A DNA stretch of 64,000 bases from Microglena sp. YARC (lineage: Eukaryota; Chlorophyta; Chlorophyceae; Chlamydomonadales; Chlamydomonadaceae). A model generated the notes under the pieces. The model was not told where the DNA came from and searched no databases. It saw nothing but the letters and a program-made list of their open reading frames with translations. The stretch lies in contig CM039463.1 in the NCBI GenBank assembly GCA_022414725.1, positions 25,090,832-25,154,831 of the forward strand. Direction: 5' to 3'. Numbering within the stretch: the first letter of the stretch is position 1; every line of letters starts with the position of its first letter. The position numbers were made by a program, and so were the translations under genes. Below, in pieces: positions 16,681 through 50,075 of the stretch.

Positions 16681-16684
16681 ATGA

Positions 16685-17184: not shown

Positions 17185-17217
<33 letters not shown>

Positions 17218-17790: not shown

Positions 17791-17799
17791 CTGGGGGGG

Positions 17800-18060: not shown

Positions 18061-18586
18061 TAGAAGTAAGCCCACACCAAGTTTAAGGGGGTTTAGGTTT
18101 TTACGGTTTAGTGGTTCAGGCTTTGCATTCAAGGTTTAGGGTTGTTGTGGTTTTTAAGGTTTAGGTAAGTAAGGCTAAGCTTCCTCCTACTAGGTGGAGG
18201 CAGCTGATGTGTTGCCTGTACAGTTAATGATGGCTGTTGGGGCTTGATCGGCCTCCCAATCAGATTGCAACTTCTCCCACCTCAAGCTCTTCGGGCTAAC
18301 TGTATCCTCCGCCCACCCTAACATCTGTTATGATGATCCAGTGTGCCGTTCGCCCCCCGGCGCGTGTAACTTCCCACCCCCTCTAAAAACCCCCGCCCGC
18401 CCCTAAACATTCCCCCGAGCCCACCCCCTAATTTCCCGCGGGAGCCCTCTTAACATCTCCCCGCCCCCCGTAACATCCCTCCGCCCCTAACTTTCATACC
18501 TAGGGTGGAGGTGCACTCCCTGTAAAGCTTAACGGATGGCTGTTGGGGCTTGACGGCCTTCCAATCGAACGGCATCGCCAACAGCT

Positions 18587-20436
18587 TTAACCACCCTGTT
18601 CTCTAGTCTTGCTCCCTCTTTCAAGGGGCAGCTGCGGGCAGAGTAACTGAGTCTTGCAGGACGTGCAGCCCACGCTTGAGGGGGTGTTGTAGAGCACGCC
18701 TGGTGGCAACCCTTGGTGGAGCAGGGCAGCATGCGAACATGGTCCTCTGAGACGCAACGTGAGCACATGCATTTGAAACCCCTGCAGTGGGGCGCATTTG
18801 TTTGTGCGTGTATGCTTGTGTGTTTGTGTGTGTACGCTTGCGTGTGTGTGCTTGTGTGTGCTTGTGTGTATACTTGTGTGTTTGTGTGTGTATGCTTGTG
18901 ATTTGTTCTGGGGCAGGGCAGCATGCAAACGTGGTCCTCTGAGACGCAAAGCGAGCACATGCATTTGAAGCCTGCATCCCGAAGGAAAGGGAGTGTGAGG
19001 TCAATATTTGCGACACATCAACCAGAGCACATGCATTTGAAACCCCTGCAGTGGGATGCATGTTTTGTTGTATGGTGCTTGTGTGTTTGTGTGTGTATGC
19101 TTGTGTCAGTTGTGTGTGTATGCTTGTGTGTTTGTGTGTGTATGCTTGTGTCAGTTGTGTGTGCATGCTTGTGTCAGTTGTGTGTGTGCATGCTTGTGTG
19201 TTTGTGTGTGTATGCTTGTGTGTTTGTGTGTGTATGCTTGTGTGTTTGTGTGTGTATACTTGTGTCAGTTGTGTGTGCATGCTTGTGTCAGTTGTGTGTG
19301 TGCATGCTTGTGTGTTTGTGTGTGTATGCTTGTGTGTTTGTGTATGTATGCTTGTGTGTTTATGTGTGTATGCTTGTGTGTTTGTGTGTATGCTTGTGAG
19401 TTTGTGTGTGTGTGTATGCTTGTGTGTTTGTGTGTGTGTGTATATGCTTGTGTGTTTGTGTGTATGCTTGTGAGTTTGTGTGTGTGTGTATGCTTGTGTG
19501 TTTGTGTGTGTGTGTATATGCTTGTGTGTTTGTGTGTGTATGCTTGTGTCAGTTGTGTGTGTGTATGCTTGTGTGTTTGTGTGTGTATGCTTGTGTCAGT
19601 TGTGTGTGTATGCTTGTGTCAGTTGTGTGTGTGCATGCTTGTGTGTTTGTGTGTGTATGCTTGTGTGTTTGTGTGTGTATGCTTGTGTCAGTTGTGTGTG
19701 TATGCTTGTGTCAGTTGTGTGTGTGCATGCTTGTGTGTTTGTGTGTGTATGCTTGTGTGTTTGTGTGTGTATGCTTGTGTGTGTGTGTGTTTGTGTGTAT
19801 GCTTGTGTGTTTGTGTGTGAATGCTTGTGTGTTTGTGTGTGTATGCTTGTGTGTTTGTGTGTGTATGCTTGTGTGTTTGTGTGTGTATGCTTGTGTGTGT
19901 GTGTGTTTGTGTGTATGCTTGTGTGTTCGTGTGTGTATGCTTGTGTGTTTGTGTGTGTATGCTTGTGTGTTTGTGTGTGTATGCTTGTGTCAGTTGTGTG
20001 TATGCTTGTGTCAGTTGTGTGTGTGCATGCTTGTGTGTTTGTGTGTGTATGCTTGTGTGTTTGTGTGTGTGTGTATATGCTTGTGTGTTTGTGGGTGTAT
20101 GCTTGTGTCAGTTGTGTGTGTGCATGCTTGTGTGTTTGTGTGTGTATGCTTGTGTGTTTGTGTGTGTGTGTATGCTTGTGTGTGTGTGTTTGTGTGTATG
20201 CTTGTGTGTTTGTGTGTGTATGCTTGTGTGTTTGTGTGTGTATGCTTGTGTCAGTTGTGTGAGTATGCTTGTGTCAGTTGTGTGTGTGCATGCTTGTGTG
20301 TTTGTGTGTGTTTGTGTGTGTAAGCTTGTGTGTTTGTGTGTGTATGCTTGTGTGTTTGTGTGTGTATGCTTGTGCATTTGTGTGTGTATGCTTGTGTGTT
20401 TGTGTGTGTATGCTTTTGTGTTTGGGTTTGTATGTT

Positions 20437-20486
<50 letters not shown>

Positions 20487-31119: not shown

Positions 31120-31387
31120 AAGCAAATGCCGCAATGTACCACCCCACCTGTGTAGAGTGATCATAGACATGTACCGCAATGTACCACCCCACCTGTGTAG
31201 AGTGATCATGGACATGTACCGCAATGTACTACCCCACCTGTGTAGAGTGATCATCGACCTGTACTGCAATGTACCACCCCGCCTGTGTAGAGTGATCATA
31301 GACATGTACCGCAATGTACCACCCCACCTGTGTAGAGTGATCATTGACATGTACCGCAATGTACCACCCCACCTGTGTAGAGTGTTC
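31120..31387. repeat. 45-bp minisatellite, left part
   Basis: Six units contain GTACCGCAATGTACCACC and CACCTGTGTAGAGTGATCAT. The array continues at 49745 on the far side of the copia element, so the element inserted into it. Confidence 0.9.
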
Positions 31388-31392
31388 ATAGA

Positions 31393-31775
31393 TATCAGCT
31401 AGAAAGCACTTCGAAGAGTGGAGAGAGATGTATGCAGCGGAGACAGACGCGCCAATCTATACACGGAGACAAGAATAGCGTTACAAGGACAGGCGGACGC
31501 CAAAGAACACCAGCGGTGGGAGAGGCAGATGCCTGTAACCTGACTAGACCCTAAGTCAGGAAACTTAAGCCAGGCACCGGCTATACAGAGTGTGTCAGTG
31601 AGAGACCGATGACGCAGTCAACAGGAAGCTGTCACCGTGTCATGAAGGATGACACAGTCTACGGGAAGCTGACACAGTACAGACAGAAACACTGTCTGGG
31701 CCGATAGTTCTAAGGAAGTACATAAGTAGTCACCAAGTCATAAAACGCGTGAGAGCACCGCAATTCATGCTGACA
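31393..31775 (-). repeat. Copia 3' LTR
   Basis: 383 bp, TATCAGCTAG to GCTGACA on the plus strand, apparently identical to 49357-49739. ATAGA duplication at 31388-31392. Confidence 0.95.
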
Positions 31776-31839
31776 CTCCACCTATGACACAGGTGACATA
31801 CAATACTACCTCTCCACCTATGGCACTGGGGACATAGAA

Positions 31840-32096
31840 CTATATGTAACATATATAAAAAAAAAAATCAAAGAACTCCGAAAAAATCGAGAGAACTTCA
31901 AATGGAACCCAAAGAATTATAGGAAGGAATGAAACAAGGCAAAAAATTCGAAAACAATTTGCCAAGCTAGAAAGAGAGGAAAAACTAATATCAAAAATGG
32001 GTAACAACGGTATAGAAAACCCGATCCGGGAATAGGAACCTAATGCCAAACTTTGATAACGAAAAGAAACTAATATGACCAAATGCAAGGATGACC
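31840..32096. other. Copia 3' untranslated region
   Basis: A/T-rich sequence between the RNase H stop and the 3' LTR, with an A run at 31858-31867. No other feature is seen. Confidence 0.5.
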
Positions 32097-32790
32097 CTAA
32101 GAAGAAGCGGTCATACCTAACATGCGGACAAACCTCCAGAACACAGCAGGATCAAGGGGCTTGGTGAAGGGGTCAGCACAGTTATCCACGGTGTTAACAT
32201 AGGCAACATCCAGTGAACCATCCTCCACCAGCTCCTTGATGTAGTGATGAATAACATCAATGTGCTTGCTGCGAGGGAGTAGCTGCCAGTCATTGGCCCA
32301 ACTCAGAGACCCTAAGTTGTCACCCTGAATGGTAACCAAAGCACAAGGCAGACCCAGATCCACCCTCAATTTCTTCAACCATTGTACCTCCCTGGCAGCC
32401 TGGGACAGGGCCTGATACTCAGCCTCACTAGAGCTAATGGCAACAGTAGGCTGCCTCTTGCTCATCCAGTTCACTATGCACCCCCCAGCTAGCACAGCAA
32501 AGCCAGTCTGAGACCGCCTGTCAGACCCATCATCAGCAAAGGATGAGTCACTAAAGACAGTAAAAGAGAACTCAGGGTTGTGGGTGTAAGTGAGACCCAG
32601 GTGGGAATGTGTTCTCAAATACAAGAGCAACCGCTTGGCAGCCCCCCAGAGAGGGACGGTAGGGTGAGCAGAAAACCTGGACAGGTAGCTCACAGCAAAA
32701 GAAATATCAGGCCTGGTGCAAGTAGCCAGGTATAGCAAAGCACCCACAAGAGAGAGGGTACTGGCTATTAGACGGCAGGGGTTCTCCAGG
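32097..32790 (-). pseudogene. Copia RNase H and end of reverse transcriptase
   Basis: Reads LYLATCTRPDISFAVSYLSR, the conserved RT thumb segment of copia elements, then RNase H with FSDSSFADD (first Asp), SSSEAEYQAL (Glu) and GDN (Asp), and the closing KHIDVIHHYIKE and ADPFTKPL. RNase H removes RNA from the cDNA hybrid. It is in a different frame from the preceding RT; the switch is near a CT run at about 32755-32765. Stop at 32097. Confidence 0.85.
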
Positions 32791-34446
32791 GGCGTCAGAA
32801 ACGGTGGACTTGGCCATGGGGGCAGCAAACCTGGGTGGGGCAGCATCAGTAAGACCAAACTGCTCCACCAGATCAACAATGTAGGTGTGCTGAGAGATGT
32901 TGATCTGAACACACCTGCCTTCAGAATCAAGTGTAACATGCATGTCCAAAGAGAGGAACTGAACCGGAACACCCATCTCTTTGACCTCCCAGCCAGCCTT
33001 TTCCATAGCCTGGATAAGCAACACATACCTATCCAGCTCACTAAAAGCACAGATAAAATCATCAACATAGGTCAGAACATAGCTCCACCCACCATCAGAA
33101 TCCTTCCTAAAATACAGAGCAGGTTCAGCCTTGCACATAGTGAAGCCGTGTGCAACCAGAACCCGCTTGACATCCCTACTCCAAGCCCTGGGTGCCTGCT
33201 TCAATCCATAAAGAGACTTGAGCAGCTTGCACACAAGGGGAACACCGTTGGGACCAAGGTGCTGAAAGCCCTCAGGCTGGCGGCAGTACAGGTCCAGACC
33301 AGGTTCCAGCTTAGCGTTCAGAAACGCAGTTTTGATGTCCAGCTGCCGAACAAACATCTTTCTATGAGTGATGGCAGCCAGGAGCACCCGAAGACCTGCT
33401 TTAGAGGAGACAGGGGCATATACGTCATGAAAATCCAGCCCAGGACGTTGCAGAAAGCCACGTACCACAAAACGTGCCTTGAAGCGTATAGAACCATCAA
33501 CCCCAATCTTCTTCACAAATAACCACCTGCCTGACAGGATCTTTTGCTTACGAGGCTGTGGAGTGAGTACCCAAGTACCATGGGCATGTAGGGAAGCCAT
33601 CTCATCCTTCATAGCAAGAAGCCATTGATCCCTGTCAGGGTTGGTAGGGAGCATGGCAGCTTTATAGGTTAGTTCAGTGGAGGGGGCAACAGATGCTCCC
33701 ACGTACAAGCAGTTTACTTGTACATGAGCAGCGGGGATATCAGCAGTATCAGCAGTAACCGGTAGTAGAGCCCCCAGTGCAGAACTACTGCCTGGTTGAA
33801 CAGGGCCGGCCTTATTTGCCTCTAATTCAACGAAGCCTGGGTCGACCGGAACACCCCAGCCATACGCAGTATCGGAGCCTGACCAATGATCAAGATCATC
33901 ACTTGCACTATCGGCAAAGGCTACATCATCACCCGGGCTCCCGATTAATCTATCAGGAACGGCAGGAGGCGAAGCGCTCACCAACCCCTTCGAGCCATCC
34001 AAGATGATTGGAGCAGGGTGACTATTAGACAATGGACCTATAAGAGGCTCCACTATGATCTGAGATTGTCGTAATCCTAGAGCTTCACCGACGGAATTTG
34101 ACGCAGAGGAGGGCCTGGCGACCCCCTGAGATTCGGCTAAGATTTTATCCGTAGGAACTGCAGAACCTCGCCCGCCCAGTGCATTCTCACGCAATACAGT
34201 ACCAGCAGCCCCTGACCGGGGACGCAGAATCATCCTATGGCCAGGACAGTGGTCAACAATTGGGGAAAGCAAAGGATCTAAGGAATGGACCGCAGCCTCA
34301 GGCATGTGTCCGTTGATAGCGGCAGGGATGCTAGAAACATACGGCGACCCGTCATAGGGAGGAAGCCCAGGAATACAGTTATAGCTAAACTGTTCATAGA
34401 AGAGTACATCACGACTCTCTACTACCTGGCGCAACTTAGGAACCAA
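32790..34446 (-). pseudogene. Copia reverse transcriptase
   Basis: After a long variable linker the frame has KARFVVRGFLQRPGLDFHD, QLDIKTAFLNAKLE (first catalytic Asp) and YVDDFI (the YxDD pair), then LKSLYGLKQAPRAW, all in copia order. The domain copies element RNA to cDNA in virus-like particles. The start is not an ATG context; the frame joins the integrase part through a one-base shift near 34440. Confidence 0.88.
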
Positions 34447-35574
34447 ATAAAATAACCCTTACTCACCAGAGAATACCCAACCAGTCTACCAGATAACGCC
34501 CTTTCGTCCAGCTTGTTACGTTTCTTCCCATTGACTAACGTGACATAGCAGGGGCATCCAAACACACGTAACAACGACACATCAGGCATCACCCCATAAA
34601 AACAACTCATAAGGTGTCTTGCGTCCCTGATTGGGCAGTCGGTTACGAAGGTAACAAGCAGCTAGGAAGGCATAAGGCCAGAAAGACTTAGCTAGCTTTG
34701 ATTCCAGGTGGATACTCCTAGCTATAGACTGCAAGACCCCATTATACCTTTCCACAGTTGCGTTCTGCTGGGCAGTGTACACCAACGATAACTCATGTAC
34801 TGCCCCAACCGATATCAGCCAATCCTCGAACCATTTAACTATAAACTCCTTGGCCCTGTCAGATCTCAGACACTTAAAGGCAAACCCCTGCAGCTGATTT
34901 GACCATCTGAGGATGATCGTTTGGACTGCTAAGGGAGCTTCATCCCTGGTCCTCAAGCACAATACTTCAGCAAAGCCAGAGAATTGGTCTATGAGGCACA
35001 GGATGTAAAACTCCCCACGCAGACCCCTAATATGAACTGGTCCCATGATATCCAAGTGAAGTCGTTGGAGAGGTGCACGGATCTCAGTTTTGCTTTCTTT
35101 AGGAAAAGGGAGACGTTTGCCCTTAGCCTTGTGACAAGCATCACATGGGATCTTACCCAACTTTTGCACTTGACCCAGACTGAGGGGTAAGTTCTTAACC
35201 ATACCACTCTTGACAAGTTTGTGTAAGGCACTATAGCCGGGATGACCCAACCGCCTATGCCACAACCATGCAGGAGTGGTAGGGAGAACAACTCCACCGT
35301 CCTCATCAACATCAAGTGCAAACGCTGGATAATTGTCAGCAACGCTTAAACAACGACTGGAGGTGTGACAAGGCCTACATGCAAACTTGTACACACCATC
35401 ACTGGAGGCAGGGAAGGACCAGAGAACAGAAGAGTCCTGAGTGGCAGTGCAACTAAGACTATCAAAGAAACCTGGCAGTGGAGAGAATGAGCCACAGCAT
35501 TTACTGACAGGAGATTCACCGGACAGTGAGGGATATAAAGAACATTGGTTAGAGTGATTGATGTTGGTAACCAA
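34440..35574 (-). pseudogene. Copia integrase
   Basis: The HHCC domain is visible (WHRRLGHPGYSALHKL, then CDACHKAKGK), followed by the DDE core with HLDIMGP, CLRSDRAKEF and QQNATVERYNGVLQSIARS, and the C-terminal RVFGCPCYV. The frame breaks at about 34600 (an A run beside KTPYELF) and again at 34440. Integrase would insert the cDNA into the host genome. Confidence 0.88.
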
Positions 35575-35756
35575 TCACTACATAACACAATGGATCCCTT
35601 ACCCTCTGACCGTTGAATCACCCCGTCACCAAATCGAACCGTAGGCCCAACAGCAGAAGATTCAAACACAGTGAACAAAGACTTATCACCCGTGATTGAC
35701 ATTCCAGCTCCAGAGTCCACATGCCAGACACCCTCAGAAAGACTAGGGCTACACAC
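35346..35756 (-). pseudogene. Copia aspartic protease
   Basis: Carries WHVDSGAGMSITGD, the DSGA active-site motif of copia proteases, and LTNVLYIPHCPVNLLSV, the conserved flap and helix region. It cleaves the Gag-Pol polyprotein. Its end overlaps the integrase frame at about 35530-35570 in another phase. Confidence 0.85.
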
Positions 35757-35757
35757 G

Positions 35758-37091
35758 TTAGAGAACTTCGTAGTGCAAGAGAATAGGACAGAGCGTACCT
35801 CCTAGTTTCTTGGACATGGCGTACCCATCAATCTGAGCCTGCAAGGAGGACAACTGCTTGCGAGTCAGCGAACCTGGAAGGGCCAAGGCAACGGGCACGG
35901 GTTCAATGCCCGGTGCACCAGCCTTGGCCTTTCGCAGGTGCGGATGTTTCGTCCAGCAACGGTCTCCGAGTGGCTCGTTTTGGAAAGACAGGGGCCCCAA
36001 GTGCAATCCAAGCGCCTCTTGGTAGTCCCGGAACCCTGAGGACCAGGTCCCCTGCCACGCTGAAAAGCAGCATTGGCAGGGACTTGGGGAGGATCGCGGG
36101 ACAACCAGGATGCCTCGATCAGACTTAGGGAGAGACACGTTCAAGAAATCTAATGATCTATATGCTGCCAGACAGGTCCAGTAATCAACAGGCTGGTTCT
36201 GATGCAGTGCGAGACCAAACTGTAGCCGCAGAGAGTCGAAGCGGGGGTGCATGATGCCATTAATAATAGTATGCATGGCATGGCGCTGAGGCTGTGGGTA
36301 TCCCGCACTGCGGAGGTCAGTGCACAAGCCCCGGACCCTGCAAAAGAACACATCCACAGGTTCAGAGTTGTCCATGGTTGCACGCCGAAGCTCAACAAGC
36401 ATGAGAGGGACACGAGCAGCAAGAGCATCAGAACGCTGTCTTCGGATATGCAAAGAAGATATCCCGAGGAGTGGCAAAATCCTGAATACACATTGACCAT
36501 CGCATCCGTCATGTTCGCAAGCATCATAGTGAGACACATGAACTCCTGACGTTCCAGGGGGCAGGGCACTAAAACCCAACAGTGCAGGATCTACACGAGA
36601 CTCACCATGAGAGGCCGAGGTCCAGCAGCAAGAGGATCAGGCACAGGAGCATACGAGGCACGAACCGACATAAAATACTCGACAGCAATGCCAGCATCAT
36701 ATGCGCGCTGATCATCTAAGTTCCTAATGAGATCTAAGGAACGCGCAACACTCGCAACGAGCTCGAAATCAGGCCTAACAGGAACAAAACTGAGAGGGAC
36801 CTTCACATACTGATACCCTCGGAGATCATTGTTCCTACGCCCAATCCCACCAAAGGTAACACCTCCAGGGGAAGGGTAGTTAATCCCTGCCTTCACAGGT
36901 CCTAGAAAAGCACGACACTCATGACCCAGCTCAGAGTAAGCCATCACACGCTTAGGGCGACCCTTTCTATCTAGATTAGCCCGAGTGGCTGCCTCATCCA
37001 GCCTACCGTACAAAGTGCGATCAAGAGAATCTCCAGCATACTGGGCTTGGCGAATAAGTCGGCAGTCCCGCACAGCCAGCCGCACAGGTGG
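35758..37091 (-). pseudogene. Copia gag
   Basis: Two frames, 37091-36591 and 36579-35758, together look like a copia Gag: MAYSELGHECRAFLGP... and then LVELRRATMDNSEPVDVFFC and GLCTDLRSAGYP, resembling the UBN2 Gag core. A CCHC knuckle is not visible. The two parts are offset by one base near 36590. The 5' end is cut by the nested element; a fitting ATG is supplied by the flank at 48366. Confidence 0.7.
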
Positions 37092-38086
37092 TGTTGTCAC
37101 ACGCGATTGCGTGTTTACCTACGTAACACTAAAAGCAAGGGAAATACCTTGTACACGCACACACACACCAAGAGCAGACTCCGACCAGACCTGTGCCCAG
37201 GTAGCCCAGAATCTGGCTGAGTCAACCCGCCGTACATTTCCGCCTAGTGGCCAGCTACCCACAGCTACCTAGGATCGGTTACACATACGCGCCCAGGCCG
37301 CGTCACAAGCGCAGCTTGCGTGACACGCGGGCGCTTGTCTGAACACGAGACATAACAATCCTGTGCCATTAAGCGAATCTCCTTTCGCCCGAGCAAATCT
37401 CCTTTCGCCAGCACAGGCAAAGCCATACCCTAAGGACAGAAGAGTTTATAGTCGATTGAGACGACCAATTCTCTCTCATTCTACTATCAAACCCTTGTCC
37501 AGGTGCGTCGATGCTGTCGTCGGGATAAGTCACTGCTAGGCGCTACTTGCGCACCTACCCCATGCAGTGTTTGCCTTGTCGTGACACCAACCCGTCACGA
37601 CAATCCAATACAACTGTCACGCATCGTGAATAATCATCTTAGGCTCTTGCGCCGCTTGACCCCTGTCGTGCATTGCAATCCCGCCTTGCCGACCTTTTTC
37701 CGGCAAGCTATGTAGACACTCGCGCGTTCACTTAGAAACCGCAGTTTTATCTTCTATTGTTCCTAGAACAAATTGTAACTCATTCTACTATCAAACCCTT
37801 GTCCAGAACCACCACGGATTCAAAGTCTGCGTCTCCAAGCCCCTGTCGTTACCGACTCCCGGAACCTGTCTACCTACGGTCGCCTCCAGTACCCTCCCCG
37901 AGCATTGACAACCCCCGTCTGCCGGACTTCAGAAGGAGACTCCGGTCAACCCCTCTCCTTTCGCCTCGACTCCACAACTGCCGAAAGTCCAACCCCTCGG
38001 AACGGTGAGACGTCACCGTCAGTACTGACGACGGTGCTTCCAACCCCTCGGTAACGCGGCTACCGGAGTACAGAACACCCCATCAC
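37092..38086 (+). other. 5' untranslated leader of the gypsy-like element
   Basis: No gene. A 28-bp direct repeat, with TTCTACTATCAAACCCTTG, lies at 37476-37503 and 37779-37806. GTGACACGCG-type inverted words occur at 37095-37330. It may contain a degenerate LTR, but no matching copy is found near the 3' end. Confidence 0.5.
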
Positions 38087-39440
38087 TTGGTACCCCTTCC
38101 AACAGAAGGATCACAGCTACACGGCGGCAGCGTATCACATACCAAAGCCTGGCTTCTGATGATGAAGAGCTACATTGTCAACATCAAGAGAGACCTTGCA
38201 GTGGAGGAGTTGTGGGAACAGATGATGGTACAGGTCTATGAGAACTCTCAACCATTCGTCTTGTTTACAGACAACAGAGCCGCATGGATCCAGGAGTGCA
38301 ATGCTCTCCAGACACAAAGCTCCTTGAATGGAGTCCTCCAAGTCAACGAGCATGGTCAACCAATCATGAACCCAGCCACTTGGAAGCTGAAGCTCATTCA
38401 TTTCTACGAGCTGGTCAAAACTGGACTAGCACTCGCACTCAAGGTAACCCCTCTCGATGCCAAGGAGGAGTATGAGAAGTTTGACTGCTACGACAATGCA
38501 GGCCTCTTATACCCCATGCCTCGCATCTTGATGTCAGAATTCACAAAGAAGTACGAGGAGTTTGATATCCGGGCTGGACAACCCCATTACCGGGAGGCCA
38601 TGGCCAAGGTGGCCAAACTCCTTGATCGCATGGCCCCACCCTGAAGGAGAACTTTGGCAGCTACAAGGATGTCACCCCCTCGGTTGCTGGGCAATAGCCA
38701 AGCTCTACAAGCTTGACCAAGACCAGCACACCCTGGAAAGGCTGTCTGGCATTGCCAAACTGAAGCATCCAAAGAGAGACGATATGACAGCACAAGGCAT
38801 GCTGCTCTGCGTCTCCAAACCACCAACACAGAGGCCAACTGTCATGCCACGCCAAACGCCTGCTTTTCCCGTCACCCAGGACCCCAGTGCACCCAAGGGC
38901 AATAACGGTGAACCCAAGTCTTCCACAGTTTGCACTACATGCAACATCACTGGACACGATTCCGACACTTGCTACCTGAACAACCCTGGGACCCCTAACC
39001 CATCCTGGTGCCCGAAGAACCCAGCACGGTACGCCATCTGGCGCACCTCAACAATCCAGCAAGGCTTCGCCCCACCACCAACTTTGGACCAGCTCAAATC
39101 TGGAGTGCCTTACTTCCGCTCAGTGCAGGGAGCTGTCCAACACAGCCCGCATACACAAATGCGTAACCCCCCCGCACAGCATTACAGACAGCCACAGACT
39201 CCAGTACAACAGCAATCCTCCCTACCCCTCAAAATCCCAGGTACAAGGGGAAGAACCCACGACCCTTTTCGGCCGGCACCCAGGGAACAACAACCAGAGA
39301 AGCATGGGAGGAACTGGTGGCGGGTATCAAGATGGCTACCAAGGAAAAAACCAAGGCACCCAGGGTGGATACCAAACAAGTTACCAGGGAAACAACCAGG
39401 GCACTCAAGGCAACTACCAAGGGCAAACAAGAAGCGCTAA
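38087..39440 (+). CDS. Gypsy-like gag, capsid and nucleocapsid
   Basis: The first part (38087-38644) begins near ATG 38158 and has helix-rich capsid-like sequence (WKLKLIHFYELVKTGLALAL). One base off, 38640 onward continues (LYKLDQDQHTLERL...) into the zinc knuckle CTTCNITGHDSDTC at about 38931-38972 (C-x2-C-x4-H-x4-C), which binds RNA during packaging. The tail is Gln/Gly-rich with GYQ repeats. The frameshift at about 38640 may be real or an assembly error. Confidence 0.7.
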
Positions 39441-39512
39441 CGACAATAGCATGCAGCAGCACCAACGGCCAGACGTCGTCATGCAACTACACAACAACAA
39501 CACAATCGGCAG

Positions 39513-40178
39513 ATGCAGTTGCAGCAGCAACAGCATAACCAGCAGTTGCATGACACGGTCTTCGCCATTCGTGAGGAACTTCGTTCGCAAAACATCAGCG
39601 GACGCCATGCCCCACACCCCCATGATCAACACAGCCGTAGCAACCAGCCACTACAACTAGAGGCTCCACAAGCTGCGCAATCTGATCTACCAGAACCTGA
39701 CTGGTACAATGCAGCCCTAGTAGTCAGCTTCCGACAAACTCCAGACGCCGAGACACAAGCTAGCTCACAGGCAATTTACAAGCCCACATTTGATCCTTCC
39801 ACTGACGGAACTGGGTCAACAGCTGCCATCCCCCTACCAAGCGCTCGAGTATCACGGCACGTTACCCAAGCCCAGCATCGGGCATCACAAGACCTCCTCA
39901 TGGATGAGATGACAGTCTTGCAACGGGATCTTGATTTGATGTTCAGAGAAGTGCAGAACCTGCACGAGTTCAACAGGGCCTTGCAGGTCAGAGCCACAGC
40001 AGTTGAGACAGCACAGCGCGCAGCTTGTGTCACGCACAACCCAGTGGACACATTTGTACGCGACTACACTGCTTCTGGTCAGCTGAGCCCTTCTACAGCA
40101 ACCTTGCTGCAAGGAACAGAGCCCAGCTACGGTGTACCGTACCTAGCCAACCTGTCCCCAGACTGGCCTCTCGTTTAA
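39513..40178 (+). CDS. Gypsy-like element linker ORF, coiled-coil
   Basis: Encodes a Gln-rich N-terminus (MQLQQQQHNQQLHD) and a helix-forming part (VLQRDLDLMFREVQNLHEF). It lies between nucleocapsid and protease in an element that otherwise encodes one polyprotein, so it is probably a Gag-Pol linker after a frameshift. No known domain is recognised. Confidence 0.5.
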   Translation: MQLQQQQHNQQLHDTVFAIREELRSQNISGRHAPHPHDQHSRSNQPLQLEAPQAAQSDLPEPDWYNAALVVSFRQTPDAETQASSQAIYKPTFDPSTDGTGSTAAIPLPSARVSRHVTQAQHRASQDLLMDEMTVLQRDLDLMFREVQNLHEFNRALQVRATAVETAQRAACVTHNPVDTFVRDYTASGQLSPSTATLLQGTEPSYGVPYLANLSPDWPLV

Positions 40179-40185
40179 GTCCACA

Positions 40186-40571
40186 ACTGGCCTCCTACAG
40201 TGCGTCAACCTTATGGTCCTCGTCGACACCGGCAGTGGTCTCAACTTCATCTCGCAATCTATGGCGGACTCATTGGGACACGATCCTCTCCCATGCCACC
40301 ACAAGACGATTGCGTTCAATGACGTCAAAAGCTCCCTCACCAAGGAGATTCAAATGCCTGTCATTTTTTGCAGCGAAACCCCAACGAGATCAGCGTCAGG
40401 GCAACTTTTGTCATTGCCCCTGACAACACCATCTTCGATGCCCTCATCGGTACCCACTCATGGCCATGCCAGGCATTTCTGCCCTACCTGACATTTCACA
40501 AGAGAAACTCACATTGCGCCCCTTCCTCCACTTGTCCGGCGCAGAGCATACTGCCACAGGTCGCGCTTTGA
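40186..40571 (+). CDS. Gypsy-like aspartic protease
   Basis: MVLVDTGSGLNFISQSMADS holds the DTGS active-site motif of retropepsins. The frame shifts by one base at a T run near 40365 and continues with ATFVIAPDNTIFDALIGTHS, matching the DxLIG motif of the second half. It would process the polyprotein. Confidence 0.8.
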
Positions 40572-41856
40572 CCGTGGACTTGCCATTCAGGCCAGTATCT
40601 CGAACCAAGCAGCTCCCTCCATGCTAGGCCGCCGCCACGAACCAGGGTATGGCCACCCTTCGAGGGACCACCCACCCACCCGACGGAGTCCATCATATGG
40701 AACAAATCTGGACAGACAGCACCCATCGACCTAATGATGGACATCCTCCGCTTCTTCCCCAACCTCCGTCGTCACACGCCATTCAACATGTCCTCCATCC
40801 GATTTTCCCACCCCAACTGATCAGCGTTCTACATGACCCTGCTCATGCATATGGTCACCCATGCGCACAGCATGGAAAGCTACAGCTATGAGACCAACAG
40901 TGACAACACGCTGTACCTTGGAGATGTTAACCTACTCCACAGGTGCATCCTAGACTTGCCAGCTCAGGACAACTTCTCATCTGTCCTCACCTGGGGAAAG
41001 GAACAAGGCCTGCCAATCCGAGTCACCCTCACCCCACGCAGTATGGGGGAAGTGCTCGACCCCAGGAGCATGGAGCACTCCGGGGCATCCCTACACCTTT
41101 CACACCCATTGGTCACCCCAAGTGATCCAATCAGACCTATGACTGACGCTTCTGTGTGCATCCTACCTCAATCCAGGGCACCTACAGTCTGTACTCAAAC
41201 TCCTACCCCTACTTGGATAGTTGCTACACAAGCACCCGCCTCTACCACCTGTCCCAGGTTTCGGTTTGCCGCTGGACGCGTACGCAGTCGTGCAAGGACG
41301 GCAACCTGAGCCCTGTGCTCGCCCCCTTACACAACCAACAACAGCATACTCTCCTCTTCTCTTTCCCTCCAGGATACAGAAGAGCTACAGAGCCACCAAA
41401 ACCGCTGTATCAATTGGTATGACACATCGGCACCCAGCTTGCATTCTACCTCCATCTTCTTGATCCGCAGGCCACCCGTCTACAACAGTGAGGATGACTT
41501 CGAATACGACGCTGCAGCCACCTCTGCTCCTAGCTCTCATCGTTGCCCCACCTCACCCCTGCTGATTACTTGCTCACAATGACCAGCACTCCATCTCCCA
41601 CCCCAGCCGGTGACAACTATAAAGAACCCCAAGACTTCTTCACAACACAGCTGGATGATGTCTACTGGCGACCAGGTCAAGAGTTCCTGGGAGGCCAAGC
41701 AGCAGTTTACCAAGCGTCCACTTCTTGCGCTTTACCAGTGCACCCGGACCCTCCCACTCCAGCTTCACTCCTGCCTGGCCGCCTACAAGGAGGCCTTACT
41801 AGCTGCCTCAGTCACATGGACCCAACTATCTGCAGGAGGGGGGGATTAACAACAGT
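40572..41856 (+). other. Gypsy-like protease-RT spacer with broken frames
   Basis: Open segments (for example 40833-41309, with MESYSYETNSDNTLYLGD) in different frames look coding in composition but are not recognised. A G-rich tract ending GGAGGGGGGGATT lies at about 41834. Confidence 0.4.
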
Positions 41857-43704
41857 ATGCCAGACGGAGCAGTCACACCCAATGCAGATAGAGGGGCCCT
41901 ACATCCAGACTGTGACCTCTTCATTGGTCATCATCGGGATGGCACTGAGGCGCAACGCAAAGAGATGGCAGCCATGCTCAACAGAATGACCCCAGCAGTA
42001 GCGCGGACTATGGAGGATTTGAGAGAGGGATACAAAGGGATTGTGCCTCCTATGCACATAGAGAAGGACAACGACAAGCAGGCATTCACTAGTCCCTACC
42101 GCAAGCCACCTATAGAAAAACTTGCTCAAGACAAAGTCTGCGCTGAATTGCTCCTGCTAGGCTTCATAGAGCCAGCTCCTTCAGCTCAGCATGCAGCAAA
42201 TCCTGTCGTCGCCTTGAAAAAAGGACCTGATGGCCAGCACACTGCGAACAGAGTGTGCTACAACTACAAGGCCATCAACCTCCTGACCAAAGACATGCAC
42301 ACAGGTTTCCCAATTGCAGAGGAATTATTCCAAGACCTGGGTGACTCCAAGTGGTTTACACGAGTAGACCTGCGCTCGGGCTTCTACCAAGTCCACTTGT
42401 CTGCCGGCTGCCAAGATTTCTCAGCCTTTTGGTGGGACAAGCAGCTTTACAGGTTCAAGCGTGTGCCCTTCGGACTGAAACAAGCACCAGCTTACTTCCA
42501 GAAGGTCATGGAAACTGAGTTGGGCAAACGTGGTCTCCTCAAGTTCAGCAAGGTTTTCATTGATGACATTCTGGTCCACAGCGCCACCTTTGCTGATCAC
42601 ATCAAGGACGTGGAAGCAGTACTACAGTGTCTCATCGACATTGGCCTCCGCATACACCCTGACAAGTCCTGCTTCGCACTCGACGCAGTCGATTTCTTAG
42701 GCTTCGATGTCAGCAACCATGGTCTCACCCCGCAAGCAGCCAAAGTCCAAGCTATCCAGGACCTGCCCTACCCAAGCAACCTCAAGGACCTCAAGACCAT
42801 CCTGGGTAAGCTGCGCTACTACGGTTGTTTTTGTGAAAACTTTTCAGCCATAGCCAGACCCCTCAATGACCTCACCAAGAACGATGTCAAGTGGACTTGG
42901 GGACCCGAGCACACAGCAGCCATGGACGCCATTAGGAGGAATATCAGCACACCAGGCAAGGTTTTGCGACGCTTTGACATCAACGCGCGCACCCTCATCC
43001 ACTGTGACTGGAGCCAACATGGATTAGGAGCAGTGCTCGGCCAGCTCGACTCGGAAGGTAACGAATACCTCGTCGCCTGTGCCAGCCGCAGCCTTAACAA
43101 GCATGAAGCAGAATACAGCAGCTTCGAAGGAGAAATGCTGGCTGCTTGCTGGGCTTGCAAGATCTTCCGCGTATATGTCTTCGGACTACATTTCACACTG
43201 GTCACTGATCACCAGCCTCTGCTGTGGATGTTCTCCTCTGCCAACGTCACCGGTGCCATCGCTCGATGGGCATGCATGCTGCAGTCATTTGATTTTGACA
43301 TCATGCACAGACCAGGTGCACAGCATGGCAACGCTGACGCACTGTCTAGGTTTCCCAGCCCCACTGCAGAGGACAACACTGGCGCTCGCATTGACCTGGA
43401 CAGCGACCTATACGCAGCATTTCCAACAGTGCCCACCACCCCTTATGTGCCCCTAGACTTGACACTAGGGCACATCGTGGACTACGTCCTTGACGTCAGA
43501 TCTGTCTTATCCATCTGCACAACACCCTTGCCTGCCGCCGTCACATACATGGCCCAGAATGGCATCACTCTATACGAGATGTGCGGGGGAATGTGTGCAG
43601 GATTGGAACAGCACTGCGCAATGGCATCCAAGTTAACAGGTATATCTACAGCGACATTTCGCCCGCTGCTCAGACAGTCGCCCGCTATAGGACACAAGCT
43701 TTGA
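41857..43704 (+). CDS. Gypsy-like reverse transcriptase and RNase H, running into methyltransferase motif I
   Basis: RT motifs in order: RVDLRSGFYQVHL (first Asp), RVPFGLKQAPAYFQ, and FIDDILVHS (catalytic DD, about 42555-42580). The thumb and RNase H follow, with LIHCDWSQHGLGAVL (Asp), EAEYSSFEGEMLA (Glu), LVTDHQPLLWM (Asp) and GNADALSR. This RNase H style is typical of Ty3/gypsy. After about 65 more residues the frame enters ITLYEMCGGMCAG, motif I of a C5 DNA methyltransferase, before leaving frame at about 43600. The fusion shows that the methyltransferase belongs to the Pol polyprotein. Confidence 0.93.
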   Translation: MPDGAVTPNADRGALHPDCDLFIGHHRDGTEAQRKEMAAMLNRMTPAVARTMEDLREGYKGIVPPMHIEKDNDKQAFTSPYRKPPIEKLAQDKVCAELLLLGFIEPAPSAQHAANPVVALKKGPDGQHTANRVCYNYKAINLLTKDMHTGFPIAEELFQDLGDSKWFTRVDLRSGFYQVHLSAGCQDFSAFWWDKQLYRFKRVPFGLKQAPAYFQKVMETELGKRGLLKFSKVFIDDILVHSATFADHIKDVEAVLQCLIDIGLRIHPDKSCFALDAVDFLGFDVSNHGLTPQAAKVQAIQDLPYPSNLKDLKTILGKLRYYGCFCENFSAIARPLNDLTKNDVKWTWGPEHTAAMDAIRRNISTPGKVLRRFDINARTLIHCDWSQHGLGAVLGQLDSEGNEYLVACASRSLNKHEAEYSSFEGEMLAACWACKIFRVYVFGLHFTLVTDHQPLLWMFSSANVTGAIARWACMLQSFDFDIMHRPGAQHGNADALSRFPSPTAEDNTGARIDLDSDLYAAFPTVPTTPYVPLDLTLGHIVDYVLDVRSVLSICTTPLPAAVTYMAQNGITLYEMCGGMCAGLEQHCAMASKLTGISTATFRPLLRQSPAIGHKL

Positions 43705-45075
43705 CCAACCTCTACCCCCATCTGCTCAAGTCATACGCCTGCGACCATGCCTTCACGACGCTGCCCCAGGATGTGACCAAGATCACACCAGAACAGCTCA
43801 TGACCGCAGCTGTGAACGACCAATCACAGTGGCTCATCATAGCCGGTCCAGAGTGCCAAGACTTCAGCCCAGCAGGAGGCAACAGAGGACTCAAGGGACC
43901 CCGGGCCGCCGTCCTGCAGGCTTGTACCACCGTCATAGGGTACATCCAGCAGCTACAGCATCCTCGGCAACCCCTCTACATCGTGGAGAATGCAGCAATG
44001 CAGCACAACTTTCGATCACAACATATTGCTACCCAAGACTTCAACGCAGTCAACAGAACTCTTGGCCTCCCTATCTGCGTGGATGCTGCAACATTCGACT
44101 CAGGAGCGCACAGACTCCGCAACAAGTGGCAGAACTTGGTTGACCCCCTTGATCTCCAGCTCCAGCTCAACAAGACCCGTCGGACTGCCAACATTTCAGC
44201 CAACGCCTTCTTGGATCCAGGACGGAGCACTACAAGGGTCTACAGATCAGACACAGCCCCTTTTTGCTTAGCAAACAAGATCGGACAAGAGCGCAACGTA
44301 CTGCCTACTCTAGTAGCGTACCCTCTGTCTCGAGCCTTCAGACCTGACAAGCCAGGCAGCATCTACTCTCTCCAGGGCGGCGCATGGTCTGAACCAAACC
44401 CTTCTGAGAGAGAACGCATGCTCGGATACTACACAGGAGCAACAGCAGCACCAGGTCTCACTCAAAACCAGAGGCATATCCTCACAGGCAACAGCATGGA
44501 TCAGCGAGCCTTGGTAGCAATCATCAGAAAGACCTTGGAAATGGCAATCCCTACACGTCTAACATCTATGCTAGAATTTAAGCCAACCCCCAGGCCTGAG
44601 TTGCTACCTTCTCCCAGTCCTGCTCTTCTTCTGACAACTTCTCCCAGCTATCCCAGCAATTCTGGCGGTCGCATATCAGACCCCACGCCTCCGACACGCC
44701 AGTTCTATGGCACTGAGCTTGCTTGCCTGCTGGCAGTCACCAGGAGCAAGACTGTCAAGCCACACATCTGGCCATCAAAACCACCTGCACCAGCCAACAG
44801 CCAACAACCACCAGCCATCAGCCAACAGCCCCCAACCAACAGCCAACAGCCAACAGCCACCGACCCTCAGCCGTTGCAACACTCCCCTCCTTTGCCTCTT
44901 CTACCATCTTCAGCTCCAAGTCCTCCACTCGCCCCAGGCAGACAGTTGGATACTGACCTGCGCCTTGCTGCAATGTCCAAGGACACTGACGGTCTAGACA
45001 TCCACTCTGATCAGTTTGTCTTAGAGTACTTGAGGCGTGGAGTCCTCGGATCCAACTGGACGACATCTCGTACTA
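43555..45075 (+). CDS. C5 cytosine DNA methyltransferase domain of the retroelement
   Basis: C5 methyltransferases transfer a methyl group to cytosine in DNA. Motif I is at the end of the preceding frame (YEMCGGMCAG); the rest is in the frame open at 43581-45263. Counted from 43581: motif II YIYSDI (residues 21-26), motif IV GPECQDFS with the catalytic Cys at residue 92 (codon 43854-43856), motif VI YIVENA (133-138), motif VIII-like HRLRNKW (177-183), motifs IX-X ERERMLGY and LTGNSMD (276-307). The arginine-rich motif VIII and the spacing recall DNMT3/DRM-type enzymes, but GPECQ is closer to the DNMT1-type PCQ, so the subfamily is open. A Pro/Ser/Gln-rich linker with SQQPP repeats follows. 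A one-base shift at about 43600 separates motif I from the rest. Confidence 0.85.
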
Positions 45076-45081
45076 GGCGGG

Positions 45082-46885
45082 TACTGGCAAGATCAAGAAA
45101 GTACAGGCTTGGCGCATCTCCAACTGGAGAAGAGAGAGGATCATACGCATCCTGGCCAACGGCATTGAACGCATCGTCCCAGCCCCCAGCCAGAGGTCCA
45201 TCCTCATTCAGAGGGCCCACGAGACCAGCGGACACTTTGGGGCACGCAGAACAGCTTACTTAGTGGTCAGCTCTTTCTGGTGGCACGGCGTGGTCAAACA
45301 AGTCAAAGCTCTGGTCAAGACATGCAAAATCTGTGACCAAGCCATGGCCTACTTCAACCAGCCAACAGCCACATTGCAATCCCACCCGATTCATGGCCTC
45401 TTCTTCGCTTGGGGAATTGATTTGTCTGGTCCCTACAACAAGACAGCCAGGGGCAACACTATGCTCATGCACGCCGTGGAGTATTTCAGCGCCGCACTCG
45501 TAGTGGTCCCCATCCCAGCCAAGGAGGCCATACATACGGTATACGCGCACTCTCATGGAGTCTTGGCACACTTTGGCGCATATGCGCTCTGCATCTCTGA
45601 CAATGGACCAGAGTTCCAAGGCAAATTCAAGGAACATCTGCTTCACAACTTCATTGACCACAGGACGATCCACCCTAACCACCCTCAGGGCAACGGTTTT
45701 GTGGAGCGAAGCGTAGGTACCATCAAGGCAGCCTTGACCAAGATCTGCTCTGAAAACCTGGCCACTGACACATGGGACATTGACATAGCCAAGGTCGTTA
45801 CAGCGTACAACTGTAGCCCTCAGGAGACTACTAAGTGCGCCCCCTTCACTCTGCTGTACGCCCGGGCTCCCGTCATGAACAACCCTGAGGCACAGCTTGC
45901 CATGACAGCGCCGCTGCCTGACCTGACAGACAGCACACAGGTGCAAGCTCTGACAGACACTCTCCTGGAGCGCGCTCAATGGATCAAGAGAGTCAGCCCA
46001 ACTATTGCCAATCACATAGCAATCGCCCACCACAGGGACACCCTGCGCTACGCAAAGATCAGGGGGGGGGCCTATCACCCTCGCCTACGCAAATTCCAGG
46101 TGGGAGACTTTGTGTACATCCGCCGTCCCAACGTGCGCAACTCCTTGCAGATGGCTGCCCAAGGCATGATCCTGCGCATCATCGACCTCAAACCATCTGA
46201 AGTCGTCGTCTTGCAAGGACGTTGCGGTTGCACCATCACCAACCATGCCCGCAATTTATCTCCTTGCCACCTCCCTAACTTGGATGGCACAATCAGGCCA
46301 GACTTAGCAGTCCCACCCCCCAGCCTAGCCTGCAGCGTCTGCAACTTCCCTGACAACGCAAATTGCATGCTACTCTGCGACGGCTGTGGAGCAGGTTACC
46401 ACACTCACTGCCTTGACCCACCTCTCTCTGCAGTTCCCGTCGAGGACTAGTTCTGCCCCAACTGCAAAGCCAGCGGCATCACTGCAATCCCCGCGGGACG
46501 CATCCCAGAAACACCACAGAAGGAACCTAACCTTTTCCCCACCCCGCAGACTCGCTCCAGAGACAGAGCCGCCCTCGCCTGCGACAAGATGCTTGTCATC
46601 AAACAAGTCAGAGTCCAAGGCGGCCTCGACAAAGCTGTCTGGGGCACTGCCTCCTTCCAAGGACCACTGTCCAGGCCATGGTACTTCAAGCTAACCTACG
46701 ATGACGGCCAAGTCATTAAGCTCACCATGGCTGGACTCAAAAAACTCAACCCACTCCCCACAGGCACACAGAAGCCCTTACCACTCACACCTGTGCTCCC
46801 CTGCCTCAACCGTGCATGCAGGCATCCAACGCACACCATCCTGGCGTCTGAGGACAACCCATCCTGTGAAGTGTACCACACATGA
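45082..46885 (+). CDS. Gypsy-like integrase with PHD finger and Tudor-like domain
   Basis: From about 45082 the frame has the integrase zinc domain (HETSGHFGARR...CKIC) and the catalytic core GIDLSGPYNK (Asp), CISDNGPEFQ (Asp) and HPQGNGFVERSVG (Glu). A C-terminal SH3-like part follows (FQVGDFVYIRRP). Then comes a C4HC3 PHD finger: CSVC, CDGCGAGYHTHC and FCPNC. TAG at 46448-46450 replaces the codon just before FCPNC, where PHD fingers usually have Trp, so it looks like a TGG-to-TAG change. The same frame continues past it to 46885 with WGTASF...WYFKLTYDDGQVIKLT, a Tudor-like fold pattern. PHD and Tudor domains commonly bind modified histone tails. Confidence 0.85.
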
Positions 46886-46933
46886 GCACACTATTGCTCA
46901 CCTCAACTCCTTACATTCCCTCCTACCTCAGGT

Positions 46934-47507
46934 GATGGTTAACACTGCAGAATATCGTGACAGCACCCATGCACTCACATGGGACTTCTTGCCCCGTTAC
47001 GCACCAAATTTCACATCCCATTGGGCACAACGATACAATGGCCAACCACCCCTTGCAGATGATTTACTCTGTCTTGGCCCATGCTACTATGGTGACCTCG
47101 ATAACCCCCAAGGCCATGTCCTTCAACTCCCCACTGAATCTGTCCAACAGTACACTACACGCATTCACTTCCTCCAAGCTGCCTGGCACCACCAGCAAGC
47201 TGACCTGATCACAATTTTCAACAGGGTAGAGGAAACCAGGCGCATTAATGGAGCATACCCATACCCAGTGCATGTACCATATTTCACTCGTCGCCTACCT
47301 GACGTTGAACGCTGGACCCACCTGACTCACATGGTCTACATGCCACCACACATGGACCAAGGGTCAGGTTTAACAACCTATGGCGCCCACCCCCCCTCAG
47401 CCTTCCTGGACTTTGCTTCCAACCCCCCTCCCATCTACTACATGGCAATGCGTCCTCGCTTTATGGAATACATCACCCCACACAACACTCATGTTCCAGT
47501 GGTCTAG
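46934..47507 (+). CDS. Extra 3' ORF of the gypsy-like element
   Basis: A frame of about 190 residues from an in-frame ATG (MVNTAEYRDSTHALTWDFLP) with even coding composition. It is rich in Tyr, His and Pro (YYMAMRPRFMEYITP near the end). It has no recognised domain, transmembrane segment or zinc motif. Gypsy elements sometimes carry an accessory ORF here. Confidence 0.5.
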
Positions 47508-48354
47508 ACACACTCTTACCTACCCACCATACCCACCGTCTGGTTTGGTTATGCAGGCTGTGTAGCAGACAGGCAGCTTGCATAACCCAGACATGCCTTG
47601 TGCCTGTGATGGACCAGTTACGACTAGCCCACAGGTTGTCATGTTTGTTTGTTAATCCATGCGGGAGGGGGGTGTGCAGAGGACATACGTCTTCATTCCT
47701 GGGACAATACACGTCCCAGTGATCGCAACAGTTCTAGGATTCTTTTTGTTTTCTTGCTTCATGTTCCGAGTTGCGTTACATATACGCAACACCATCCCAA
47801 ACTTACTTCAAGACAAGTTTGCAGCCACCACTGGGTTGCTGACTGGAAGCCTCTAGGAGGGACAGTCAGCACTTGCAATATGACCAGATGAGGATTTTCG
47901 CCCAGTTGCATCAACTTCTTTCAACTTGGACACCACGACTTTTTCTACTGGCCACTGTATTACATGCCTCCAGATTTATTCGGCCGGTCCCATACTTGAT
48001 CTTTGTTGACTCTCAAGGTTTTACCTCTTTAAGTAATAGACGTGGCTTTAGTTCCTTTCCGTTTCGACATAACCACCACCTACCTTTTATTCTTCACTCC
48101 GTGCAGAGGGGGGGAAACTAGGTGGTGAGTCCTGCTTTACCATACTCCAACACCAGAATGGATACACCTTCTGTACATACCTTTTTGTGTAACCAGCAAC
48201 ATCAACCCCATCTGCTCGATACCAGCAGCAGGGGGGGGAAGGAGAGATTTCCAGATTTTTTTTCTCTAACAGAATTACAATCAACTCTCCCCGTTACCAC
48301 TTCTCTTTTTTCACTACACTCACTCCCATTCCGTAGTGAAGGGGGGGAATTGCA
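47508..48354 (+). promoter_or_regulatory. 3' untranslated part with repeated polypurine tracts
   Basis: Four G-rich purine tracts occur: GCGGGAGGGGGG (about 47662), GCAGAGGGGGGGAAA (about 48103), GCAGGGGGGGGAAGG (about 48228) and GTGAAGGGGGGGAA (about 48334). They resemble the polypurine tract that primes plus-strand cDNA synthesis; the last lies only 7 bases from the inferred end. No LTR is found. Confidence 0.5.
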
Positions 48355-48358
48355 GTGG

Positions 48359-49356
48359 TAACATACCTATCCTAAGGAGCACGCATACAGCCGTGACAGT
48401 GTGCCATCAAGCAGATGTTCCCAGGATATGCCGGACAGCGTAGGATTCATAGACGGCGGAGGGCCAGGCGCAGGTGGCAGATCCACCGGTGGAGGTGGAG
48501 GGGGCTCCTGCGAGGTGCCAGCAGCAGATCTGTGGACACTCGTGGCAGCAGCCTCGCGAGCCCGAGTATGGTAAGCACCAAGAGCCCGCTCTGCAGGGTT
48601 GCGAGCCTGCTCTGCAAGGTTGAGTAGAGGACCCAAAGGACCAAGAGACGAACTCCGCAGCAAAGACGGCTTGACCACCTCAGGTAGGTCCGGTGGAAGC
48701 GGCGCAAGCAGAGCGGCAGACGGAGGCTTGAAGACCGCAGGAGAAGGTGCCAATTGAGGCTCATACACCGGAGAGACAGTGGAGGTGTGGAAAACCCTAG
48801 TAGCAGAAGAGGGAGTGACTCCACCGAAGTCGCCATTTCTGGCACTCTGTAGATCTTCCATACAATCATCAGAGTAATCTTCCTCTGAGTCGTCAGACTT
48901 GCCGTAAGCATAGCCATCTTCATGGCTATGGAGAGCAAGGTCTACAGTGTCGTAGGTAAAGCGGCATCAGCGGGTGGAGGCGACCTTGCATACTGGATAA
49001 TCTGTGTGGAAACACAGCATAGGCGCATCAGAATATCCTCAACCTCAGGTCGGAGACGTTGGACAAAAGGAGAAGGAGACGGAGAAATGGAGGTATTGGA
49101 GGGGGGGTGGCTTCCATGATGGCGGAAGGAGACTCATCTCCGGCAGCAGAGGCCGCTGGCGCGCAATCATCTAGCCAATCAGTGGGAACACGAATCTTTA
49201 GAGGAAGAATTCGGTCGCATCCATTACTGATAATGACGCTCTCCATACCGCGCGACCAGGAAATACCATTCTGTGGGGTAAGTTTCTCGAAGCCGGCAGG
49301 AGGCCCACGCGGAAGTTGCATTGTAAAGCAGTGGTAGAAGTAATAAGCCCGTAACC
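48359..49356 (-). pseudogene. Copia 5' leader with broken N-terminal ORFs
   Basis: Minus-strand frames at 49321-49028 (PPAGFEKLTPQNG...) and about 48950-48367 (YDTVDLALHSHEDGYAYGKS, then a Pro/Ala-rich tail) have coding composition but need one or two frameshifts to join. They lie between the 5' LTR and gag and are unrecognised. On the minus strand the sequence just inside the 5' LTR (GGTTACGGGCTTATTA) is where a primer-binding site is expected; the tRNA is not identified. Confidence 0.5.
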
Positions 49357-49739
49357 TATCAGCTAGAAAGCACTTCGAAGAGTGGAGAGAGATGTATGCA
49401 GCGGAGACAGACGCGCCAATCTATACACGGAGACAAGAATAGCGTTACAAGGACAGGCGGACGCCAAAGAACACCAGCGGTGGGAGAGGCAGATGCCTGT
49501 AACCTGACTAGACCCTAAGTCAGGAAACTTAAGCCAGGCACCGGCTATACAGAGTGTGTCAGTGAGAGACCGATGACGCAGTCAACAGGAAGCTGTCACC
49601 GTGTCATGAAGGATGACACAGTCTACGGGAAGCTGACACAGTACAGACAGAAACACTGTCTGGGCCGATAGTTCTAAGGAAGTACATAAGTAGTCACCAA
49701 GTCATAAAACGCGTGAGAGCACCGCAATTCATGCTGACA
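49357..49739 (-). repeat. Copia 5' LTR
   Basis: 383 bp, apparently identical to 31393-31775, followed by the ATAGA target duplication (49740-49744). As the 5' LTR it should hold the element's promoter; no element is assigned by eye. Confidence 0.95.
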
Positions 49740-49744
49740 ATAGA

Positions 49745-50075
49745 CATGTACCGCAATGTACCACCCCACCTGTGAAGAGTGATCATAGACTTGTACCGCA
49801 ATGTACCACCCCACCTGTGTAGAGTGATCATTGACATGTACCGCAATGTACCACCCCACCTGTGTAGAGTGATCATTGACGTGTACCGCAATGTACCACC
49901 CCACCTGTGAAGAGTGATCATAGACATGTACCGCAATGTACCACCCCACTTGTGTAGAGTGATCATTGACCTGTACCGCAATGTTCCATCCCACCTGTGT
50001 AGACTGTAGAGTGACCATAGACCTGTACCGCAATGTACCACCACCTGTGCAGAGTGATCATTGACGAGGGAAGTT
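49745..50075. repeat. 45-bp minisatellite, right part
   Basis: Seven to eight units contain GTACCGCAATGTACCACC, continuing the array interrupted at 31387. Confidence 0.9.

Follow-up and report, generated by a model that had tools for sequence, protein, structure and literature searches.

A DNMT3-type cytosine methyltransferase as a probable regular Pol domain of a Ty3/gypsy-like retroelement family in a chlorophyte alga

The window analysed here, a stretch of 64,000 nucleotides from the green alga Microglena sp. YARC (contig CM039463.1, positions 25,090,832 to 25,154,831; G000:C2:25090832-25154831 in the 568 Mb genome of 2390 contigs that was searched), contains a Ty3/gypsy-like retroelement with a C5-cytosine methyltransferase domain between the RNase H and the integrase of its Pol polyprotein. 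The explanation that we favour, and consider probable, is that this DNMT3-type enzyme is a regular Pol domain of a chlorophyte family of such elements, with the order reverse transcriptase (RT)-RNase H-DNMT-integrase-PHD, and that it methylates the element's own new complementary DNA (cDNA). The domain order, the open frame in natural copies, the catalytic residues, the predicted DNMT3 fold, the selection and the copy number are all read from sequence; that the function is methylation of the element's own copies, we infer.

The preliminary description of this stretch had proposed C5 methyltransferase motifs between RNase H and integrase of one element, and these are present in the translation. 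In the general numbering of such motifs, motif I (43564-43608), motif IV (GPECQ, holding the catalytic Cys, 43845-43877), motif VI (VENAA, with Glu-Asn, 43971-44000), a VIII-like motif (HRLRNKW, 44103-44135), motif IX (44403-44456) and motif X (LTGNSMD, 44481-44516) follow one another in that order, after the C-terminal end of RNase H at about 43353 (GNADALSRF) and ahead of the H2C2 motif of the integrase at 45218-45265. Motif I does share the open frame of RT and RNase H (41803-43704), as had been claimed, and the remainder of the domain occupies a second frame (43494-45263). The view of the enzyme as an integral piece of a gypsy-type Pol, lying between its RNase H and its integrase, likewise holds; of the extent first proposed for it (43555-45075) the part up to about 44576 stands, the remaining 44577-45075 being a Pro-, Gln- and Ser-rich linker behind the domain. 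The chlorophyte appearance of the host is also supported, albeit by a small tree of 20 sequences, in which the plastid RbcL (L035) falls together with Batophora, Trentepohlia and euglenoid plastids, apart from mosses and seed plants, and the chlorophyte Chaetomorpha falls outside that grouping on a long branch. Among the 120 of 7690 RbcL matches listed no named species is close, the best being Batophora at 89% identity. The C-terminal DTIDKL of this RbcL is likewise compatible with chlorophytes.

Against the methyltransferase profile PF00145 the matches of single sequences are weak (E 0.0048 to 0.00047, below the curated cut-off), and 13 of 17 alignment rows match at E<=0.01, the best at 9.8e-9. 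Among 81 full-length relatives, which are not all independent, the query and its closest matches being largely one copy family, 57 alignment columns are at least 90% conserved; the catalytic Cys and Glu-Asn are invariant (81/81) and Arg-x-Arg is conserved at 100%/99%. The fold predicted for the domain, a confident model, matches that of DNMT3, with DNMT3B (28.4) and DNMT3A (28.3) ranked above 4dkj (25.5), HhaI (24.5) and DNMT1 (22.6) among Foldseek's 1000 best, and the best match in a profile search was again DNMT3, DNMT2 being far weaker (E 0.0095). Chance resemblance to the motifs is rejected on the strength of the conserved columns, this fold and the many matches described below. Relative to the catalytic domains of DNMT3A and DNMT3B, to which it is some 20-22% identical, the element domain often has Glu before the Cys, and the PHD finger lies elsewhere in the polyprotein; no ADD, PWWP or chromodomain is listed in the element proteins scanned with Pfam. 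No named cellular DNMT that could have been the donor appears among 21 matches at E<=1e-5 (8000 candidates scored). Eleven of these also match RT, RNase H, integrase or PHD, six are short with the DNMT match alone, and P0104-P0107, in which a DNMT domain alone is accompanied by stretches aligning to Pol linkers, may be either pieces of Pol or free-standing genes.

With 74 of 20513 candidates scored, at least 104 matches to the methyltransferase stretch are listed elsewhere and here in this genome, and one copy, L009:2549-7255, is a natural open frame of 1569 amino acids containing RT and RNase H as well as methyltransferase and integrase. Copies lacking the segment, which the preliminary description had named as evidence to the contrary, were not found: 36 of 42 well-matched integrases (at least 80% identity over at least 230 of 256 amino acids, among the listed ones of at least 154 matches; counted by eye) have the methyltransferase directly upstream. 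The other six (two on C1, one each on C3, C4, C5 and C6) have no upstream match among the methyltransferase matches listed, which may be an effect of the limited number of candidates scored. Beyond the genome, the protein P0002 from a public environmental assembly (1768 amino acids) is 99% identical over the domain and runs on into an intact PHD finger (PF00628, E 9.8e-11), three named relatives come from the chlorophyte Haematococcus lacustris, and relatives down to 37% identity (P0088) retain RT-RNase H-DNMT-integrase. Eleven EukProt matches, 94.9-100% identical to genome loci over 84-905 amino acids, probably represent the same or a close species. When domain order was tallied over 103 proteins, the query included (RH, MT and IN denoting RNase H, methyltransferase and integrase), RT-RH-MT-IN-PHD accounted for 50, RT-RH-MT and MT-IN-PHD for 14 each, RT-RH-MT-IN for nine, RH-MT-IN-PHD for five, RT-MT-IN-PHD for three and MT-IN and RT-MT-PHD for two each; MT-RT-RH-IN (P0091), PHD-RH-MT-IN (P0099), MT-PHD and MT (P0102) occurred once.

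The ratio of nonsynonymous to synonymous substitution (dN/dS), estimated by the Nei-Gojobori method for the 36 pairs of nine genome copies and kept where dS exceeded 0.15 and was unsaturated, has a median of 0.057 in the methyltransferase domain (15 pairs), to be set beside 0.047 in RT (23 pairs), 0.064 in integrase (29) and 0.088 in RNase H (26), and beside 0.208 and 0.193 in the linkers behind and before the domain (18 and six pairs). On these estimates selection on the DNMT domain appears about as strong as that on RT and integrase. In 48 proteins with all domains the DNMT tree distances correlate with those of integrase (Mantel r 0.75) and RT (0.63), RT against integrase giving 0.54 and the null maxima lying at 0.22-0.29, and the domain has therefore for the most part moved along with the element. 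In this context one may ask whether the domain is an accident or a passenger, a fragment of a host methyltransferase adjoining or caught by a single copy and devoid of any role, as the disrupted window copy and the weak single-sequence Pfam scores might suggest; the low dN/dS, its presence with 36 of the 42 integrase copies and its retention in relatives as distant as P0088 lead us to reject this idea as extremely improbable.

Other methyltransferases were encountered alongside this family. P0102, an environmental protein of 1952 amino acids with 17 member sequences, has a Pol of copia type (Pol_BBD, gag_pre-integrs, rve, RVT_2) in which a C5 methyltransferase, 26% identical to the gypsy domain, follows the Gag zinc knuckle and precedes the protease/integrase part; this looks like a separate arrangement. 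The Microglena genome itself has a second, unrelated multi-copy C5 methyltransferase (e.g. L036:174-1400, G000:C1:58885300-58886700), which makes up about two dozen of 123 PF00145 rows, with open frames of 406-416 amino acids mostly matching profile positions 4-165 (by eye). The one copy that was read resembles HhaI and phage methyltransferases, and the gene may thus belong to some other mobile element or to an insert of viral origin.

How might such an enzyme serve the element? On the explanation that we favour, the element's protease would cut a Pol with which the methyltransferase is made and packaged, and the enzyme would act on the finished double-stranded cDNA, in the particle or before or at integration, its target probably being CG. 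Copies methylated in advance would resemble host DNA and be quietened early, with less damage to both host and element. The PHD finger, for its part, may guide the integrase by reading histone H3 tails at the target; its closest PDB sequences include the readers of such tails KMT2D (3.4e-16), UHRF1 (from 2.3e-12) and KDM5A (1.3e-11). The presence of this finger in the same Pol, with PF00628 listed in 66 of 102 relatives (counted by eye), would also suit offence instead of stealth, the enzyme released from Pol methylating host DNA or chromatin near the integration site, for example as a shield against nucleases or in shaping the site together with the finger; the location inside Pol favours cDNA in the particle as substrate, and we think this quite unlikely.

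Several observations weigh against methylation of the element's own cDNA by a regular Pol domain. CpG is depleted in the element (observed/expected 0.52), with an excess of TpG/CpA, and the transition rate at CpG sites, compared between copies, is 2.5 times that at other C/G (in pairs that are partly dependent on one another, with two copies entered twice), a pattern that fits CG methylation in the host genome, whichever enzyme writes it. Five other stretches of the window are similarly depleted; the depletion, being equal elsewhere, is therefore no evidence of self-methylation. The position of the domain is not fixed in all proteins, DNMT preceding RT in P0091 (1777 amino acids, 34% identity), which is a real exception unless its gene model is wrong, and P0099 having another odd order. 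In single pairs dN/dS reaches 0.96 (DNMT), 0.54 (RT) and 0.74 (integrase), and dS is saturated in many copy pairs. The activity could be altered by the residue before the Cys, which is Glu in 54 and Pro in 17 of the 81 domains, and the comparable DNMT of KnitGypsy, discussed below, gave no signal in yeast, a result that its authors call inconclusive (PMC5890265). The last two points would favour a domain kept for a non-methylating or RNA-directed role, such as binding of the DNA or of the genomic RNA, or methylation of a primer tRNA or of the element's RNA, 64 of the 81 preceding residues being other than Pro. Against such a role stand the invariant catalytic residues and the conserved Arg-x-Arg, and the best fold and profile matches, which are to DNMT3, a DNA enzyme; we regard it as unlikely.

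The remaining parts of the element (Table 1) support its assignment to Ty3/gypsy, namely the order RT-RNase H-integrase, with DNMT inserted, and a DDE integrase. Its ends are of the TG...CA type and a short duplication of the target site flanks it; in the C5 copy CTGG occurs on both sides, the flank there being a simple repeat and the duplication less certain. Two plain identical long terminal repeats (LTRs) were not found, the window copy having a block A at one end and a block B at the other, and the element is called gypsy-like on its Pol. By BLAST over eight regions of 29.8 kb, block A also stands immediately downstream of the coding part, at its 3' end, with a GC as the joint (B-GC-A), in four (C5, C4 and two of C1), and was not recognised in four diverged ones. 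The C5 copy reads A-B-GC-A-coding-B-GC-A-B, with an extra A-B upstream and A-coding-B-A-B as its 3' side, the latter occurring in part also in C1b; the window copy has only A-coding-B and lacks some 2.5 kb that the C5 and C4 copies have behind A. No plain LTRs were seen in nine 9.9-kb loci, terminal repeats lying outside those pieces, and in an empty-site comparison the joined flanks matched L031 on one side only, with the junction not spanned. At G000:C1:193638000-193667800 two inverted element copies lie within 30 kb, with a 6.7-kb inverted match at 99.6%.

Table 1. Features of the retroelement copy in the window (positions are those of the window)
Feature	Position	Strand	Basis or remark
Target-site duplication GTGT, left, 4 bases	37091-37094	.	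flank
Ty3/gypsy-like element from terminal block A to terminal block B, window copy	37095-48398	+	ends TGTCAC...GTGACA, boundaries recur in other copies
Terminal block A	37095-38101	+	BLAST vs other copies
Gag-like CCHC zinc knuckle (CTTCNITGHDSDTC)	38931-38972	+	sequence
Retroviral-type aspartic protease, LVDTGSG at 40219-40248	40147-40488	+	Pfam Asp_protease_2 E 0.0015, below cut-off
Reverse transcriptase	42253-42708	+	PF00078 E 1.3e-22
RNase H	42898-43290	+	PF17917 E 8.3e-30, PF17919 E 5.2e-24
DNMT3-like C5-cytosine methyltransferase domain	43540-44576 (about)	+	single frameshift after motif I
Integrase (zinc-binding H2C2 domain, DDE core)	45161-45928	+	PF17921 E 6.8e-13; rve E 7.8e-5, below cut-off
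PHD finger, C-terminal side of integrase	46331-46480	+	PF00628 E 9.3e-8
Target-site duplication GTGT, right, 4 bases	48399-48402	.	flank

The window copy is dead, because its Pol is spread over three frames, the integrase occupying the third (45077-46450), and its PHD finger is broken by an in-frame TAG (46448-46450); other genome copies are open across the methyltransferase stretch and many others are broken too. Behind the PHD finger, 46637-46726 (VWGTASFQGP...YDDGQVIKLT) resembles by eye a Tudor/agenet-type fold, and the frame 46451-46882 has no Pfam match. The copy is nested in a minus-strand copia-like element (31393-49739; RVT_2 E 6e-46, gag_pre-integrs, rve), and the insertion is probably recent, since the 383-base LTRs of this surrounding element (31393-31775 and 49357-49739) are identical. 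These repeats were considered as LTRs of the gypsy-like element and rejected, as they belong to the copia-like one. The copia-like element had itself inserted into tandem repeats with a 45-base unit (31129-31392, 49740-50065), and at 16000-25000 and 1600-6900 the window has dense tandem repeats with periods of 29, 22, 86, 55 and 150-290 bases and, in parts, strong GC skew.

Cytosine methylation is normally a weapon of the host against transposons. Chromovirus-type gypsy elements have a reader domain on the integrase, and the likeness is a chromatin reader C-terminal to integrase, here a PHD finger and there a chromodomain. A passage of PMC12542154 reports an integrase with such a fused chromodomain. 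A literature search found no DNMT-bearing gypsy family of this order in chlorophytes (subscription papers and Repbase lay outside its coverage), and the text of the paper on the Haematococcus genome (PMC7617258), when searched, mentioned neither retrotransposons nor methyltransferases. According to a passage of PMC6338049 that does not separate the enzymes, green algae and charophytes are known to have Ty3/Gypsy and DIRS elements encoding DAM and DCM, and excerpts of PMC12344493 attribute to streptophytes and dinoflagellates a DNMT3 carried by LTR Copia and DIRS elements (with reference to the 2018 paper discussed below, which says Gypsy) and treat ChloroDNMTs as a separate lineage. It is possible, if on balance doubtful, that the elements described here belong to an old and broad green-algal retroelement clade with a DNMT3-type core Pol enzyme, about as constrained as RT and integrase, and a histone-reading PHD finger, in which the element itself would carry both a writer and a reader of silencing, perhaps shaping host methylation and constituting the main surviving source of DNMT3 activity in such hosts, since the corresponding passage of PMC9998398 reports that no cellular DNMT3 turned up among the green algae of the MMETSP transcriptomes. 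This would offer a route for DNMT3 to persist in, or return to, lineages that lost it.

The Symbiodinium elements SymbioDIRS-Dnmt3 and SymbioLINE-Dnmt are also retrotransposon-borne DNMTs, the former with the DNMT in the Pol frame with RT, and according to PMC5890265 SymbioDIRS DNMTs methylated CG in yeast. These are DIRS elements with a tyrosine recombinase, or LINEs, in a dinoflagellate host, unlike the present element with its DDE integrase and 4-base target duplication. An element of the very same kind is KnitGypsy-Dnmt3 from Klebsormidium nitens (de Mendoza et al. 2018, PMC5890265), with a Dnmt3-related DNMT in the Pol frame of a gypsy LTR element, which its authors likewise termed gypsy by its Pol, purifying selection (Ka/Ks < 0.2) similar to the ratios here, and the DIRS-like repeats A-coding-B-A-B, to which the 3' part of the C5 copy and, in part, C1b may be a parallel. 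Its host is a charophyte, not a chlorophyte, the two being compared by description only, its sequence does not occur among the named matches to the present family, and the main text of that paper does not mention a PHD. To this the present family adds a chlorophyte host, its own breadth, a methyltransferase that usually lies between RNase H and integrase, a PHD finger on the C-terminal side and the junctions of split repeats. Because KnitGypsy-Dnmt3 combines a Dnmt3 in gypsy Pol with DIRS-like repeats, common descent or transfer would seem at least as likely as the separate capture suggested in the preliminary description. In green algae, Klebsormidium and Symbiodinium alike, a methyltransferase appears to be kept under selection resembling that on replication enzymes, and the purpose of transposon-borne DNA methylation can thereby be tested in a group to which common laboratory algae belong.
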